From Rickettsiales bacterium (GTDB lineage: Bacteria; Pseudomonadota; Alphaproteobacteria; Rickettsiales; JABCZZ01), in NCBI GenBank assembly GCA_035765535.1, contig DASTXE010000004.1, positions 124,001 through 188,000 on the forward strand: 64,000 nt of DNA. Direction: 5' to 3'. Each line of letters starts with the position of its first letter. Positions within the stretch are counted from its first letter, which is position 1. A program made the position numbers and the translations under genes. Below the pieces are notes generated by a model. That model was given only the letters and a program-made list of their open reading frames with translations, had not been told where the DNA came from and searched no databases. Shown piece after piece: positions 254-52,431 of the stretch.

Positions 254-2011
254 ATGATGAAACGCGGCTTTACCCTCATTGAGTTATCCGTCGTTCTGGC
301 CGTGCTTGCCGTTGTCATGGCAGGCGGCCTCTCTGTGTTGACCGTGAGCCTTCAGCAAACACAATATAACGATACGCTCGCCCGGATTTCCGCTATTGAA
401 AAAGCCCTGGCGGATTACGCTGCGGCATTCGGCCGCCTGCCCTGTCCGGGAGATCTTACTTTGCCCCCCACCAATGCCAATTACGGCGCGGAAGCAGGCT
501 CTTCTGTTGGCGGCAAAGGCACAGGCGAGTGCTATACGAGCATGACACCAGCCGCGAACTATAAATCCTCCTCCGGCGCAGAAGAAGGGGCTGTTCCTAC
601 ACGCACGCTGCAACTGCCCGACAGTTATATGTACGATGCCTGGGGCAGAAAATTCCGCTACGCGGTCAATCCAGACTATACAGGCTATACATTCAATTCA
701 AAGGCCCCCTTCCCTAATGGCATCTGTTACAGCAGTAGCAAAGGCATTACGGTACAGGATGCAACCGGAGCAACACGCACGAGCAGTGCTGTTTACGTCC
801 TATTCAGCCACGGTGCAAACGGGCATGGCGCCTATACAAAAACCGGTGGCAGGGTCAACGCATGGGATAATAACAGCGAAGAACAGTTCAATTGCCATTG
901 CGACAGCTCCGGTGTAGACAGCGGCAGTTACCTTGCCAGTTATATTCAGCACGCTCCCACCTATCAAAGTTCACACGCAAACGATGCCACCTACCGCTTT
1001 GACGATCTCGTCGCTTTCCGTATCCCCTGGCAGCTTCAAAGTCAGAACAGCCAGATCTCCGGCAATTGCACATCCAATACCGTCATATGGATCGCAGACT
1101 ACAGCAACAGCCGCATTGTGGAATTCAGCACGCTAACGGGATCATATGTAACCTCCATCAGCAGCACGACGAGCCCGGCCTTTCCGTTCGGCAACACCAA
1201 CAGCGTCGCGCTGGATAGTGCAGGTAATATATGGGTTGCCGATACCGGAAACCGCGTAGTGGAACTCGACAGCGCAGGCAACTGGAAAAAAACGTTAGGA
1301 GGCGCGTATACGGATTCATGCGCCGGGACAGCCAACGGCGCCAGCTGCAGCAACATCAGTTCGTATGATGGCTCACATTCCAGCACTTGCTGCGTGCCCA
1401 GCAGTGGAAGCTGCTTATGCAACTCAGGCGCCGCTAACGGTCAATTCGATACCGGAGGCGCACCGACGCAGATGGCTTTCGATAGCAGCGGTCATCTCTG
1501 GGTAACAGATTACAACAATAAAAGACTGCAGGAATTCAATGCTTCGACCGGCGCCTGGATGAAAAGCGTATCCCTGTCGGGCAATCCTGCAGGCATGGTT
1601 ATCGATTCCAGCAATATCTTCTGGATTATGGAAGAAACCGTGCATGCACTATACAAATATGACGGCACAACGGAAACAGCAGCCGGCTATTCATCCTTCA
1701 GCAACGCTGGCTATTCATCCGATTACATGGCGATCGACACAAGCAACAATATCTGGGTAACGGATGAAGGAAACAATAAAGTTAAGAAATTCTCCAGCAG
1801 CGGTGTTTTCTCAAGCTCCCTCGCCCCCACAGGTGTGAGCGGAAATACAGGCATCTTCTTCGACTCCCAAGGCTATGCCTGGCTGGCTTCAGAAAACAGC
1901 AACTCAATTTATAAGGTGAACCCTTCCACCGGAACCATTCTGCTGACCATTAACACTGCAAACGGAACAGGCTTCGGCTCTCCCCAGCTCAGCTTCTCCA
2001 ATGCCCGTTAA
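254..2011 (+). CDS. Pseudopilin-like protein with C-terminal NHL beta-propeller
   Basis: 585 residues. The N-terminus is a class III (type IV prepilin) signal: a short basic leader MMKRG, predicted cleavage before FTLIELSVV, then a hydrophobic helix to about residue 30. Residues about 45-265 are a pseudopilin-type globular region that includes a GRLPCPGDL segment. From about residue 270 to the end there are roughly five NHL-like blades (for example NIWVADTGNRVVEL, HLWVTDYNNKRLQEF, NIWVTDEGNNKVKKF). A cysteine-rich insertion with six Cys lies near residues 355-390. The product should be exported and anchored by a prepilin peptidase / type II secretion-like system and display a propeller outside the inner membrane. 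No assembly genes are nearby. ATG at 257 is an equally possible start. Confidence 0.75.
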   Translation: MMKRGFTLIELSVVLAVLAVVMAGGLSVLTVSLQQTQYNDTLARISAIEKALADYAAAFGRLPCPGDLTLPPTNANYGAEAGSSVGGKGTGECYTSMTPAANYKSSSGAEEGAVPTRTLQLPDSYMYDAWGRKFRYAVNPDYTGYTFNSKAPFPNGICYSSSKGITVQDATGATRTSSAVYVLFSHGANGHGAYTKTGGRVNAWDNNSEEQFNCHCDSSGVDSGSYLASYIQHAPTYQSSHANDATYRFDDLVAFRIPWQLQSQNSQISGNCTSNTVIWIADYSNSRIVEFSTLTGSYVTSISSTTSPAFPFGNTNSVALDSAGNIWVADTGNRVVELDSAGNWKKTLGGAYTDSCAGTANGASCSNISSYDGSHSSTCCVPSSGSCLCNSGAANGQFDTGGAPTQMAFDSSGHLWVTDYNNKRLQEFNASTGAWMKSVSLSGNPAGMVIDSSNIFWIMEETVHALYKYDGTTETAAGYSSFSNAGYSSDYMAIDTSNNIWVTDEGNNKVKKFSSSGVFSSSLAPTGVSGNTGIFFDSQGYAWLASENSNSIYKVNPSTGTILLTINTANGTGFGSPQLSFSNAR

Positions 2012-3016: not shown

Positions 3017-3589
3017 CTATCCTCGCTGATTGGTGCCTCTGCCGACTCCCGCCATGGGAGGCGAGACATCCGGTGCGAGTGGAGGAGCCATATCAGGTCC
3101 AAAACCTTGGCCACGTCTCTGATTCTCTCGCCCTACGACATTTTCAACTTGCTGGGAAGAAGCATTCGGTGTTTCCGGCTTTTTATCGAGATGAAAAATT
3201 TTCCCGACGATTCCCGTAACCGCCCCCTGTATGGCACCGCCAATCGCAATCGCAGCCGCTCCGATTGCAAGCATTCCAATCCCGGGCAAAGCCATTCCCG
3301 CAACCGCCGCAATACCGACACCCACCGCCAGCGCGGCAACTCCCAGAAGCGCACCGGCCTTTGCCATCCTGCCGATGAAGCCACCTTTGCCGCCTGTCAC
3401 ACTGTCGGTAAGGCCGAGAAACCATCCTTGCACGGCACCTAAGACAAAACCTCCCGCTGCCACCAGGGGGAGCGCCAGAAGGGAAAGCCCGCCCGTGGCT
3501 GGCGCCATGGCCAAAGCCCCTATGGCTCCCGCACCGATATTCAACGCGGCAGAACTTTTGATAGCACCTTTGCGGAAGTCTTTATCCAT
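3017..3589 (-). CDS. Orphan glycine-zipper membrane protein
   Basis: 190 residues, not recognised. A short basic N-terminus (MDKDFRKGAIK) is followed by about 110 residues of Gly/Ala-rich hydrophobic segments with GxxxG-type spacing (roughly residues 15-60 and 75-130), consistent with two or more hairpin membrane insertions. The last 60 residues are polar, rich in Gln, Pro and Arg, and end NQRG. It is convergent with thrB (4-bp gap). The promoter carries the 7-4-7 repeat plus -10 architecture shared with the genes starting at 24502 and 52243. Glycine-zipper proteins include outer-membrane lipoproteins and secreted membrane-active effectors. No signal peptidase or lipobox site is evident, so no function is assigned. 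Confidence 0.6.
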   Translation of the reverse strand: MDKDFRKGAIKSSAALNIGAGAIGALAMAPATGGLSLLALPLVAAGGFVLGAVQGWFLGLTDSVTGGKGGFIGRMAKAGALLGVAALAVGVGIAAVAGMALPGIGMLAIGAAAIAIGGAIQGAVTGIVGKIFHLDKKPETPNASSQQVENVVGRENQRRGQGFGPDMAPPLAPDVSPPMAGVGRGTNQRG

Positions 3590-3619: not shown

Positions 3620-3666
3620 AGTATAGTGGATAGTCACGGAGGATTCAAATGACCCTATGATGACAA
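3620..3666 (-). promoter_or_regulatory. Promoter with 7-4-7 Pho-box-like direct repeat (copy 1)
   Basis: On the minus strand TTGTCAT-CATA-GGGTCAT (3649-3666) is followed by exactly 23 nt and then a -10 hexamer TATACT (3620-3625). The hexamer 17 nt upstream of that -10 is TTGAAT, a fair -35. The layout is the same as at 24534-24580 and 52385-52431. The 7-4-7 spacing resembles a PhoB box (direct repeats CTGTCAT separated by 4 bp). The regulator is inferred, not seen. It drives the orphan gene starting at 3589. Confidence 0.6.
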
Positions 3667-20830: not shown

Positions 20831-20859
20831 CTATTTGCAATAAGGCATAACAGACTTTA
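20831..20859. repeat. Fragment of palindromic repeat, family 1
   Basis: CTATTTGCAATAAGGCATAA and the adjoining CAGACTTTA match the right end of the copy at 13474-13597 (CTATTTGCAGCAAGGTATAG, then TAGACTTTA) at most positions. The left arm is missing. The last three bases supply the stop codon of the minus-strand pseudopilin gene. Confidence 0.65.
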
Positions 20860-21834
20860 CTGAAGCCCGAAAGATAATGCGCAGTTCGTAGAACTTGCAT
20901 TCTGAGCAACAGAGTAAGCCTGCGCCTTACCGGCAACTCCGCCATTATCGTAGCAATTGGCCGGATCATACGTCACTGCGGTCGTAAACGCATTGCAGCG
21001 GCTGCCATTAGCCCATCCCGCATTTGCTCCTGTCTGGCCAAGCGATAGCCCGGCAGGGGGAATACCATAACCATGATATCCGGAATTCCAGTTGACGTAA
21101 CAGGCTGTGACATTACCTGCCAGCGGCACCCCGTCATCAGTCTTTTTATCAATATTATAGGCCTGTGTCACCGTAACGCCAGGATTCACGGTCGTTTCGT
21201 AATCGTGATTATTGAAGAAATCCGTGATCGTTGAAACCGCAAAATAATTCTTATAAGTATTGGCAACGCTAGCGCTTGAAGCATTGCTCCAGACATACAC
21301 GAAATTGCCGTTTCCCAGTTTTGCGGTGGGCAGCCATTGATAAAGGCCGGGAGAACTGCTCAGGGTGATAGCCTGGCTGTTGATATGATATGCGGAAGGA
21401 TAACCGGCGCCTTTGGCGTCGTAACTCTGTATATTGACGTCAACCAGCCCGGCTGTGCTCAGATCCGCCCAGAAAATGGCCGTTTCTCCGACAGCTTCGG
21501 CAGCAGCTCCGGTGACACCATCCGCCGCAACATATCCCTGCAGAATGCCGTTGCCGTCTCCCTCACCTCCCGGTACACCGGTTCCCCTTGCTGAGAAACC
21601 GAAATTGGAAGCATAAGGATCCGGGATGTCGCCTGGCAAATACCCGTATTTAAGCTGGAACGTACGTATCGCCGTGCCGTATTTCTCGATCTGCGCAATC
21701 TGTGCGCGTTGCGCTGCGGTTTCTATCAGGTCGCGGCCTGTCAATATGCCGCCAACGATCAGGCCGATAATCACGAGCACGATGCTCAGTTCGATGAGCG
21801 TAAATCCCAGTATTTTACTGTTACCCGATGCCAT
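20857..21834 (-). CDS. Pseudopilin-like secreted protein
   Basis: 325 residues. The prepilin signal is a short leader ending ILG with cleavage before FTLIELSIVLVIIGLIVGG (Glu5 present). It is followed by GRDLIETAAQRAQIAQIEKY and YGYLPGDIPDP, a module shared with the protein at 35908. The mature C-terminal domain is Gly/Ser/Asn-rich and ends CALSFGLQ; Cys pairs are near the end. Without nearby pil/gsp genes its system is unknown. It converges on atpH and its stop codon lies in a repeat fragment, suggesting insertion into the former atp locus. Confidence 0.75.
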   Translation of the reverse strand: MASGNSKILGFTLIELSIVLVIIGLIVGGILTGRDLIETAAQRAQIAQIEKYGTAIRTFQLKYGYLPGDIPDPYASNFGFSARGTGVPGGEGDGNGILQGYVAADGVTGAAAEAVGETAIFWADLSTAGLVDVNIQSYDAKGAGYPSAYHINSQAITLSSSPGLYQWLPTAKLGNGNFVYVWSNASSASVANTYKNYFAVSTITDFFNNHDYETTVNPGVTVTQAYNIDKKTDDGVPLAGNVTACYVNWNSGYHGYGIPPAGLSLGQTGANAGWANGSRCNAFTTAVTYDPANCYDNGGVAGKAQAYSVAQNASSTNCALSFGLQ

Positions 21835-23617: not shown

Positions 23618-24502
23618 TCAGCGCACCGGTGCCGAGCCTACCCTGTCCGCCTGCTGCTGACGCTCGATGGCTCTTTCCTCATGGCTTGTCTCTGCCCGCT
23701 GGCCACCGGTTCTGTCCATATAGGAAGTCGATCCCTGAGGAGCAAATTTACTGGCCATGCTCCCCTTACCTGCCATATCGCCCGGCACATGATGGTGGGG
23801 CTCCGCAGAATTATGTGCATTCGGTGTGTCTGGTGTTGCATCTTTGGCGTGAGCTATATCGTTGATTGCCTTATCCTCGATCACAGCGGGATGCTGGTTC
23901 ATCGCCGTATCCGCTGAAGGCGCAGTTTCTTTGGACATACCAGCGGCATTATCTTGCGCAGAAGGGGCTCCGGTCGCAGCAGTCTGTTCAGGCCGCGACT
24001 GTTGCGGCATTTCTGGCATGGCCGATTGCTGCGCAGCCATCTGCTCAGCCATATGGCCGACATGTTCTTCCACCCTCTGGGCATATTTATCGGACAATGC
24101 ATTCATCTGTCCGGCCAGCTGCTCCATTTTTCCGGCTTTAGGAGCAAGTTTCCCTGAGACAATAGCAGATATAGCACCACCCAGAGCGGCCGCTGCTGCT
24201 TTCATCCACGGTTTAAGATTTGCTTTGGCCGCCGCAAAATAGGATGCCGCCGCACCAAGCACGCCACCGGCAGCGGGCCAGGCAACGAATGACATGGTGG
24301 TGGCTTTGGAAAGATTGGCAACTTCATAACGCAGATGTCTGCGCTGCTCTTCCATTCCGAGCTGCCCCATCAAGGCATCTACGGTAGCAAGCTTGGCCTG
24401 GGCTTCTTCCATAGCTGTCGGACTGCGGGGTTTGCCGCCGATACCTGCCGCTATCTGGCTCTCATTTTCCGCCACGGATCCTTGCATATCCTGTATTGCC
24501 AT
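23618..24502 (-). CDS. Orphan membrane protein with long polar C-terminus
   Basis: 294 residues, not recognised. Residues 1-65 are helical and charged (EEAQAKLATVDALMGQLGMEEQRRH). Residues about 70-115 are two Ala/Gly-rich hydrophobic segments. 120-150 is a probable coiled coil (KMEQLAGQMNALSDKYAQRVEEH). The last 140 residues are low-complexity polar sequence (Gln, Pro, Ala, His) with a basic end. No signal peptide. The layout, hydrophobic hairpin plus disordered tail, recalls secreted effectors, but no motif proves it. The promoter is one of three sharing the 7-4-7 box. Alternative: a structural or phasin-like protein. Confidence 0.6.
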   Translation of the reverse strand: MAIQDMQGSVAENESQIAAGIGGKPRSPTAMEEAQAKLATVDALMGQLGMEEQRRHLRYEVANLSKATTMSFVAWPAAGGVLGAAASYFAAAKANLKPWMKAAAAALGGAISAIVSGKLAPKAGKMEQLAGQMNALSDKYAQRVEEHVGHMAEQMAAQQSAMPEMPQQSRPEQTAATGAPSAQDNAAGMSKETAPSADTAMNQHPAVIEDKAINDIAHAKDATPDTPNAHNSAEPHHHVPGDMAGKGSMASKFAPQGSTSYMDRTGGQRAETSHEERAIERQQQADRVGSAPVR

Positions 24503-24533: not shown

Positions 24534-24580
24534 ACTATATACGCGTGAGCGCGGATATCCTAATGAAGGTTTTATGACAA
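24534..24580 (-). promoter_or_regulatory. Promoter with 7-4-7 Pho-box-like direct repeat (copy 2)
   Basis: TTGTCAT-AAAA-CCTTCAT (24563-24580, minus strand), 23 nt, then TATAGT (24534-24539). The 20-base string TTGTCATAAAACCTTCATTA is identical at 52412-52431. An extra ATGAC lies just upstream in both. Predicted leader is about 25 nt to the ATG at 24502, with TGGAG as ribosome-binding site. Confidence 0.65.
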
Positions 24581-35907: not shown

Positions 35908-36816
35908 ATGAGCCCGAAACGCACATCATCTGCTATCCGCAATTCTGCATGTCGCATGCAGGGCTTTACGCTGCTGGAACTGGCTATAGTGCTTGTAGTC
36001 ATCGGCCTCATCACAGGCAGTATTTTCGTCGGTCGCGATCTTATCCGCACCGCCCGCGTCAACAGCACCGTAGCGCAACTGAATCAGTTCAATTCCGCTG
36101 CTAATGCATTCGAGACGAAATACGGCTACCTGCCGGGTGACATTCCGGGCGAGAAAGCAAGCCGCTTTAATCTGTACTATATAACCGGAACCCTGCAGGA
36201 TGCCATCGGCTGCGGCGATGGAAACGGCATCATCGAAGGATGGAATACCAGCCCTTGGGTAGGAGGCGCCAATTTTGCCGGTGAAGTGGTCATGTTCTTC
36301 CTGCATCTGTCACAGGCTGGCATGGTAGACGGTATGTACGGCGCAGGCGGTGCGCATGTCACCATCAGCGGCGCCACGACGACCGGCGGCTCCTATAGCG
36401 GCTCCCAGCCTCCGACAGTCACTTCTACCAGCTCTTATGTGAATGAAATCCTACCCGAAGCCAAATTCGGTCATGGTAATTTCTTCACGGTCGGCTCCAG
36501 CGCAACGGTCAATTATTTCATTCTGACCGGCGTCAATAAGGTCAAAAACTCCGCCGACCTTGGCAGTACGAATAATATTACTCCCGTGGAAGCAGCCATG
36601 TTCGACAAGAAAATCGACGATGGAATGCCCGGAACCGGCACTGTATTTGCACTCGATACAGTCACTACCCCTATTTCTCCACCGGGCGGCGGAGGCACGG
36701 AAGTGACCACCATGTCCGCAAATAACTGTATCGACGCCACCGGCAAATATTACAACACCGCCAGCAGTACCTACGCCAATACCGAGAACTGTTCGCTAAG
36801 AATACAGTTTCAGTAA
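35908..36816 (+). CDS. Pseudopilin-like secreted protein
   Basis: 302 residues. A 17-residue or longer basic leader ends MQG before FTLLELAIVLVVIGLITGS (prepilin signal with Glu5). It is followed by GRDLIRTARVNSTVAQLNQF and YGYLPGDIPGEK, the same module as in the protein at 20857. The rest is a Gly/Thr-rich soluble domain ending NCSLRIQFQ, matching the NCALSFGLQ end of that paralog. It has a longer leader than usual. Single gene; no secretion machinery nearby. Confidence 0.75.
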   Translation: MSPKRTSSAIRNSACRMQGFTLLELAIVLVVIGLITGSIFVGRDLIRTARVNSTVAQLNQFNSAANAFETKYGYLPGDIPGEKASRFNLYYITGTLQDAIGCGDGNGIIEGWNTSPWVGGANFAGEVVMFFLHLSQAGMVDGMYGAGGAHVTISGATTTGGSYSGSQPPTVTSTSSYVNEILPEAKFGHGNFFTVGSSATVNYFILTGVNKVKNSADLGSTNNITPVEAAMFDKKIDDGMPGTGTVFALDTVTTPISPPGGGGTEVTTMSANNCIDATGKYYNTASSTYANTENCSLRIQFQ

Positions 36817-51946: not shown

Positions 51947-52013
51947 GGGGGGCCCGCGGAGCGCGATCGCCTTCGGCGATACGCAACTCCACGGGCTCCC
52001 ACTGGGTCAGTGC
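51947..52013. other. Large GC-rich hairpin 3' of the 78-residue gene
   Basis: A nested inverted repeat: GGGGGGCCCGCGGAG ... CTCCACGGGCTCCC with a perfect inner ATCGCC-TTC-GGCGAT. A second small hairpin CACTG-GGT-CAGTG (52000-52012) includes the stop codon of the minus-strand gene. No T-run. The adjoining 51794-51946 is AT-rich, upstream of motA, and shows no other feature. Confidence 0.55.
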
Positions 52014-52243
52014 AGCGTGTTGTTGGCCAGGATGCAGACCACCCTGTTCAGCGGCCTCTCATCCTGCGACGAGCAGGTCTGGCTCGGCGTCGGAACGGCC
52101 ACCGTCTGTGCCGCAGTCGGAACCGGACGCGACGTGGGGGTGTACTGCGCCGACGGAGTCGTTCCGCTGTTGGTCACCACCAGCAGAAAGGTGAAAACGG
52201 TCGCCGACACTGCAGCACCAGCCGCAATCAGCCAGTTACGCAT
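52007..52243 (-). CDS. Orphan 78-residue secreted or membrane-anchored protein
   Basis: 78 residues. N-terminal MRNWLIAAGAAVSATVFTFLLVV is a signal anchor. Thr/Pro/Ser-rich middle (about 25-55), then CSSQDERPLNRVVCILANN with two Cys able to form a disulfide. GGGAGAAG precedes the ATG by six bases. The DNA is visibly richer in GC than its neighbours, including strings of GCC, CCG and ACG codons, suggesting acquisition. The leader has a UUCG-capped hairpin (AGGAC-TTCG-GTCCT, 52262-52276). Its promoter carries the 7-4-7 box. No relative recognised. Confidence 0.6.
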   Translation of the reverse strand: MRNWLIAAGAAVSATVFTFLLVVTNSGTTPSAQYTPTSRPVPTAAQTVAVPTPSQTCSSQDERPLNRVVCILANNTLH

Positions 52244-52384
52244 ATCTTCTCCCTACGGAGCTCAAGGACCGAAGTCCTGTATCTTTCAATCGGTTCGGGC
52301 ATGGTCTCTGGCATTCTCCACACCGCAATCGGCAGGGAGAATGACCACAAAATCACGATCAGACCACGCCGATGAATCGCGGGG

Positions 52385-52431
52385 ATCATAACACAAGCAC
52401 GTGCTCACCGATAATGAAGGTTTTATGACAA
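52385..52431 (-). promoter_or_regulatory. Promoter with 7-4-7 Pho-box-like direct repeat (copy 3)
   Basis: TTGTCAT-AAAA-CCTTCAT (52414-52431, minus strand), 23 nt, then TATGAT (52385-52390). Box and spacing match copy 2 (24534-24580) and copy 1 (3620-3666). The predicted leader to the ATG at 52243 is about 135 nt. Confidence 0.65.

Follow-up and report, generated by a model that had tools for sequence, protein, structure and literature searches.

Three sequence boxes in a 64-kb stretch of DNA, the whole of which is called the window here, are members of a genome-wide promoter family. In the best explanation, which as a whole has a probability of roughly 0.6, the likely binder of this family is a PhoB-type response regulator, and the genes behind it encode mostly unassignable, predicted effector-like proteins. 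The boxes, their -10 elements, and the genes behind them are as follows.

3649..3666, minus strand: box 1, TTGTCAT-CATA-GGGTCAT (TTGTCATCATAGGGTCAT), a weak member of the family
3620..3625, minus strand: -10 element TATACT, 23 nt from box 1
3017..3589, minus strand: gene for a 190-aa glycine-rich hydrophobic protein with a polar tail, without a Pfam family
24563..24580, minus strand: box 2, TTGTCAT-AAAA-CCTTCAT (TTGTCATAAAACCTTCAT), a consensus member
24534..24539, minus strand: -10 element TATAGT, 23 nt from box 2
23618..24502, minus strand: gene for a 294-aa protein with an internal hydrophobic stretch and a long polar tail
52414..52431, minus strand: box 3, the same as box 2 over 20 bases
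52385..52390, minus strand: -10 element TATGAT, 23 nt from box 3
52007..52243, minus strand: gene for a 78-aa protein with an N-terminal hydrophobic segment, without a Pfam family

The three boxes and the 23-nt gap to each -10 element were all present in the window as originally predicted, and so was the 20-base string common to two of the boxes, for which 0.01 such matches were expected from shuffled sequences and 0 of 100 shuffles reached two. When the window only was searched for the loose pattern TTGTCATN7TCAT with at most one mismatch, three matches were obtained against 0.93 expected, and 8 of 100 shuffles reached three; judged on the window, this pattern is no more than mildly unusual. 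Box 1 was the weakest member, with four mismatches to the refined consensus given below (counted by eye) and, despite its place in the training set, a profile-search score of 13.6 bits (E = 0.2). Typical values were found for its spacing (23 nt) and for the stretch between its -10 element and the start codon (30 nt). The products of the three genes had been called unassignable, and indeed Pfam gave nothing at E <= 0.01 for any of them. Searches of 5.8 billion proteins and of 54 related genomes yielded no relative of the 294-aa protein.

A 42-codon frame (window 52231-52356, minus strand), whose GTG start lies 28 nt past the third -10 element, overlaps the start of the 78-aa gene and could encode a leader peptide or be the actual first gene; judged by eye, the 78-aa gene seemingly has the better ribosome-binding site. 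Three further proteins of the window (254-2011, 20857-21834, and 35908-36816) were found by reading to have similar type IV pilin-like N-termini (GFTLIEL/GFTLLEL...), which suggests an expanded pilin-like family.

The refined consensus of the box is YTGTMAY-AWAA-NCTTMAY, which consists of two 7-base direct repeats with a 4-base spacer and has 11-bp units. In its own genome, TTGTCATAAAACCTTCAT with at most three mismatches gave 22 matches against 6 for the reversed pattern, and the refined pattern with at most two mismatches and YTGTMAYAWAANCTTMAY with at most one gave 52 against 4 and 39 against 1, respectively, the last two counts being partly circular because these patterns were refined on sites of the same genome. 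The independent counts are therefore those in other genomes. A site list (n = 55) was compiled from the 52 sites of the refined pattern, window site 1, and the sites L009 and L017, and 53 of the 55 were examined. Four were located inside called genes, though 89% of the window is coding, and 49 were non-coding. A same-strand gene start was found within 280 nt of 38 of the 49 non-coding sites, and a gene start within 120 nt of 29 (59%), compared with 38% of random non-coding window positions. The genome scan suggested as a check of the box thus returned matches far above the reversed pattern, with gene starts nearby more often than at random positions, and these genome-wide counts confirm the observation. 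The regulon of three proposed in the original prediction is a real regulon, but it has far more than three members and covers dozens of genes.

Behind the 49 non-coding sites, TATAAT-like -10 elements with at most one mismatch were searched for at distances of 5-43 nt. They were found at 21-24 nt for 23 sites (expected 1.6), at 32-35 nt for 12 sites (expected 1.4), and 8 times at the remaining distances (expected 11.4). One or other of the two favored intervals was occupied in 35 of the 49 sites, none of which was chosen by its -10 element, although the pattern had been refined from sites already judged promoter-like. The fixed spacing that had been claimed is therefore fixed, but in two classes 11 bp apart rather than one. 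This difference equals one repeat unit, as would be expected for an activator facing RNA polymerase from one side. In the near class (21-24 nt, n = 23), no conserved -35 hexamer was seen between the box and the -10 element; the claim that the box lies just upstream of a -35 element is thereby refined, the direct repeats being placed just upstream of the promoter. A G was present two bases ahead of the -10 element in 13 of the 23 near-class sites, and in 11 of the 21 such sites with a called gene the start codon lay 28-36 nt past it.

Two genomes of the same genus showed both spacing classes. Among the 43 of 55 sites listed for these genomes that entered the count, a -10 element was found at 21-24 nt in 12 and at 32-35 nt in 12, with approximately 2 expected in each interval. 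Eight of the 29 box-downstream proteins of these genomes were blastp homologues of 8 of the 38 found here (26-47% identity, E <= 2e-8), compared with about 0.5 homologous pairs expected from random box placement, assuming about 2312 genes. The boxes of the eight pairs were kept in the same-genus genomes; the box is conserved before homologous genes.

Genomes with at least 9 matches and at least three times the reversed-pattern count were regarded as box-rich, and 28 of the 105 genomes of the order belonged to this group. The order is probably Rickettsiales, to which two VirB4 genes and the label of one of its members point, and a Micavibrio-like identity was dropped. Outside the order, the count did not go above 9 among 142 sampled alphaproteobacteria with at least 90% completeness, where the reversed pattern had 2. 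The box is enriched in some families of one order. At 18 sites in five box-poor genomes, the near and far -10 intervals held 2 and 2 elements (expected about 0.4 each), and in a further set of genomes, mostly box-poor, 19 non-coding matches included 5 members of the 32-35 nt class (expected about 0.95) and 0 of the 21-24 nt class (expected about 0.94). Because the far class exceeded chance there, the box may extend beyond the rich families. Of the six box-poor genomes with a close PhoB, five contributed 22 sites, most of which were followed by unassigned proteins and none by a recognizable pst gene, as judged by reading, without Pfam. A literature search at the level of listings yielded no description of this box, and the portions of PMC11077975 and PMC10847448 that were consulted make no mention of such a regulon.

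The original prediction had attributed the boxes to an OmpR-family activator, and this was borne out to the extent that the 11-bp direct repeats are of the OmpR/PhoB type. Among the 11 OmpR-type regulators encoded in the genome, a PhoB-like protein (L024, G000:C3:165519-166274) fits the box best and is the likely regulator, judging from its sequence and distribution. E. coli PhoB (1gxp) ranked first among the matches to its DNA-binding domain, and its recognition helix, YVELRTVDVHIRRLRKGL, differs from that of E. coli PhoB, YVEDRTVDVHIRRLRKAL, at 2 of 18 positions. PhoB-like proteins with at least 68% identity were found in 23 of the 28 box-rich genomes and in 6 of the 77 other genomes of the order (Fisher 4e-13, not corrected for phylogeny, while the two distributions share one phylogeny), and those with at least 54% identity in 25 of 28 and 19 of 77, respectively. 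Among the box-rich genomes with at least 90% completeness, 19 of 21 had PhoB at 68% or above and the remaining two had it at 57-58%; the box-rich genomes without a close PhoB (G001, G003, and G042) were all incomplete assemblies (66, 61, and 86%). Since six genomes with PhoB at 68% or above are box-poor, no box was found before phoB itself, and the co-occurrence test covered two of the 11 regulators (the PhoB-like protein and the OmpR-like L032), we infer rather than observe the identity of the regulator. PhoU was not found in five of these six genomes. The PhoU gene of the genome studied here (G000:C3:92985-93548) has no recognizable pst neighbors.

In the mechanism that we propose, the phosphorylated PhoB-like protein would bind the two repeats head to tail, where it would adjoin the empty -35 position or lie one helical turn farther up, and would recruit sigma-70 RNA polymerase to a -10 element that has no -35 partner. 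The proteins produced, which mostly have no N-terminal signal-like segment and of which many have internal hydrophobic stretches and polar tails, may then, less certainly, serve as cargo of an rvh-like type IV secretion system (T4SS) or another exporter and be used against other cells.

The genome encodes an rvh-like T4SS with VirB2, 3, 8, 9, 10, a VirB11-type ATPase, two VirB4 proteins, and five VirB6-type proteins, and effector-like cargo is for this reason the leading reading of the products, although export is the less certain and weakest step of the best explanation. No box was found at the two T4SS loci. The Pfam cut-off was passed by 3 of the 38 box-downstream products, compared with 7 of 10 control genes hand-picked along the window. 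The three were L083, an amine oxidase; L084, a type II/IV secretion ATPase carrying a cNMP domain; and L017, a patatin whose site is weak. Apart from this patatin, the 38 products showed no likeness to described effectors by Pfam. The last 60 residues of the 33 products with at least 100 residues contained more Q and fewer hydrophobic residues than those of 56 controls (p = 1e-4 and 4e-4, respectively). Substrates of the VirD4 type carry a positively charged signal at the C-terminus. Over the last 10 to 50 residues, the charge of the products did not differ from that of the controls (p = 0.25-0.80), and such a signal was dropped as a feature of the products. A tail motif, [WF]xx[RKT][IV], was found by eye in these proteins and occurred in 7 of 34 of them and in 8 of 141 controls (p = 0.01, exploratory); relatives showed no clear enrichment (2 of 23 and 2 of 14). 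The C-terminal tails of L073 and L083 were 52% identical over 31 residues in otherwise unrelated proteins, and a common export tag is possible.

Several products were characterized individually. In public sequence, a 791-aa box-downstream protein (L078:1577-3949, plus strand) has 14 relatives, of which none carries a Pfam domain in the precomputed annotation, and no Pfam domain was found in L078 itself. Its predicted fold, based on 15 sequences, had a helical core between two disordered ends (mean pLDDT 62.9) and no PDB match at E <= 0.001. A 422-aa product (L069) had two relatives besides itself. In L084 (G000:C4:106670; L158:7047-8609), which is under a box, the secretion ATPase is fused to a cyclic-nucleotide-binding domain, and no other secretion or pilus gene was recognized among its neighbors by reading of first residues. 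The box-driven amine oxidase gene (G000:C4:81159-82745) is located about 1.3 kb beyond where the VirB cluster ends, on the same strand and separated from it by a single gene.

It is possible, but rather unlikely, that the regulon is real and PhoB-driven and yet forms an envelope or phosphate-stress program that supplies the bacterium's own membrane and surface proteins, not cargo. Hydrophobic stretches were found in 22 of the 38 products, similar to the 29 of 58 controls and not clearly commoner, which agrees with this alternative, as do the lack of a charge signal in the tails, the presence of PhoU in 19 of 28 box-rich against 26 of 77 other genomes, and a box before the gene for a small basic protein of 64/65 aa in two genomes. 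However, N-terminal hydrophobic segments occurred in only 5 of the 38 products compared with 16 of 58 controls, and fast-evolving, lineage-restricted products would be unusual for core envelope genes. In addition, the PhoU locus has no box and no phosphate family was detected by Pfam among the 38 products, so that the suggested link to pst/pho genes has so far gained no support from this locus or from the products.

That a different OmpR-family regulator binds the box, such as the OmpR-like L032 or one of the KdpE-like orphans L029-L031, is likewise rather unlikely. The genome has 11 candidates of this type, and the half-site TGTAAC is presumably reminiscent of OmpR sites. By a hand count at E <= 1e-50, L032, too, was commoner among box-rich genomes (26 of 28), but it was present in 40 of the 77 box-poor genomes as well, its identity in box-rich genomes was 49-62% (full-length matches) compared with 68-77% for PhoB in 22 of those genomes outside the genus, and the PhoB recognition helix is present in none of the genome's other regulators, according to a reading of the alignment. 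That the three sites of the window resemble one another by chance would be compatible with the 8 of 100 window shuffles that reached the loose count; given the genome-wide enrichment, the bimodal spacing, and the boxes kept before homologous genes, it is refuted for the set, has a very slight probability overall, and is still possible for site 1 alone.

Under the preferred reading, a PhoB-type promoter family before effector-like genes, a shared box marks dozens of orphan genes per genome, which would provide a sequence-independent candidate list across many genomes together with a testable regulator, and it gives a regulatory context to proteins such as the relative-less 294-aa one. If the effector part fails, a large PhoB-type regulon outside the known phosphate genes would still be unusual. 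In basal Rickettsiales, no verified T4SS effector has been identified apart from a few RARP-1/RARP-2 homologues, according to the part of PMC9352585 that was consulted. We put forward, as a speculation that we hold with considerable doubt, that the box might be the promoter signature of the missing rvh T4SS effector repertoire of early-branching, possibly free-living Rickettsiales, in which a PhoB-type regulator would have been diverted from phosphate genes to dozens of injected proteins that evolve fast. If true, effectors could be listed by promoter rather than by sequence.

Among known systems, the rvh T4SS of Rickettsiales has its counterpart in the rvh-like gene set of this genome. The CenR regulon of alphaproteobacteria, which comprises envelope genes, resembles the family in having an OmpR-family direct-repeat site upstream of promoters. 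According to PMC9275681 (consulted in part), CenR has the site TGA-N8-TGA and CenKR was not found in Rickettsiales; CenR was rejected as the regulator, its site being compared with YTGTMAY-AWAA-NCTTMAY here. In Legionella, the winged-helix response regulators PmrA and CpxR control about 40 and about 30 T4SS effector genes, respectively, according to the section of PMC6989116 that was consulted. Here, too, one OmpR-type site precedes many scattered orphan genes and a T4SS is encoded in the same genome, whereas the box is another, the T4SS is P-type (rvh-like) rather than Icm/Dot, and the products are only putative substrates.

The Pho box, as defined in the consulted part of PMC4415409, likewise consists of two direct repeats of 7 bases, with spacers of 4 bases (11-nt units). 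The first half of the box found here, YTGTMAY, is close to CTGTCAT, and a regulator with a PhoB-type DNA-binding domain is encoded, but the second half, NCTTMAY, is not CTGTCAT-like. The -10 element lies 21-24 or 32-35 nt from the box here, in contrast to about 10-12 nt for the E. coli Pho box, and dozens of orphan genes are under the box with no phosphate gene seen. Because the second half-site and the -10 spacing differ, no phosphate genes were seen, the tails have no charge signal, and translocation is only putative, the family was not filed under either system, although in its working it resembles both a Pho-box promoter and an effector regulon.
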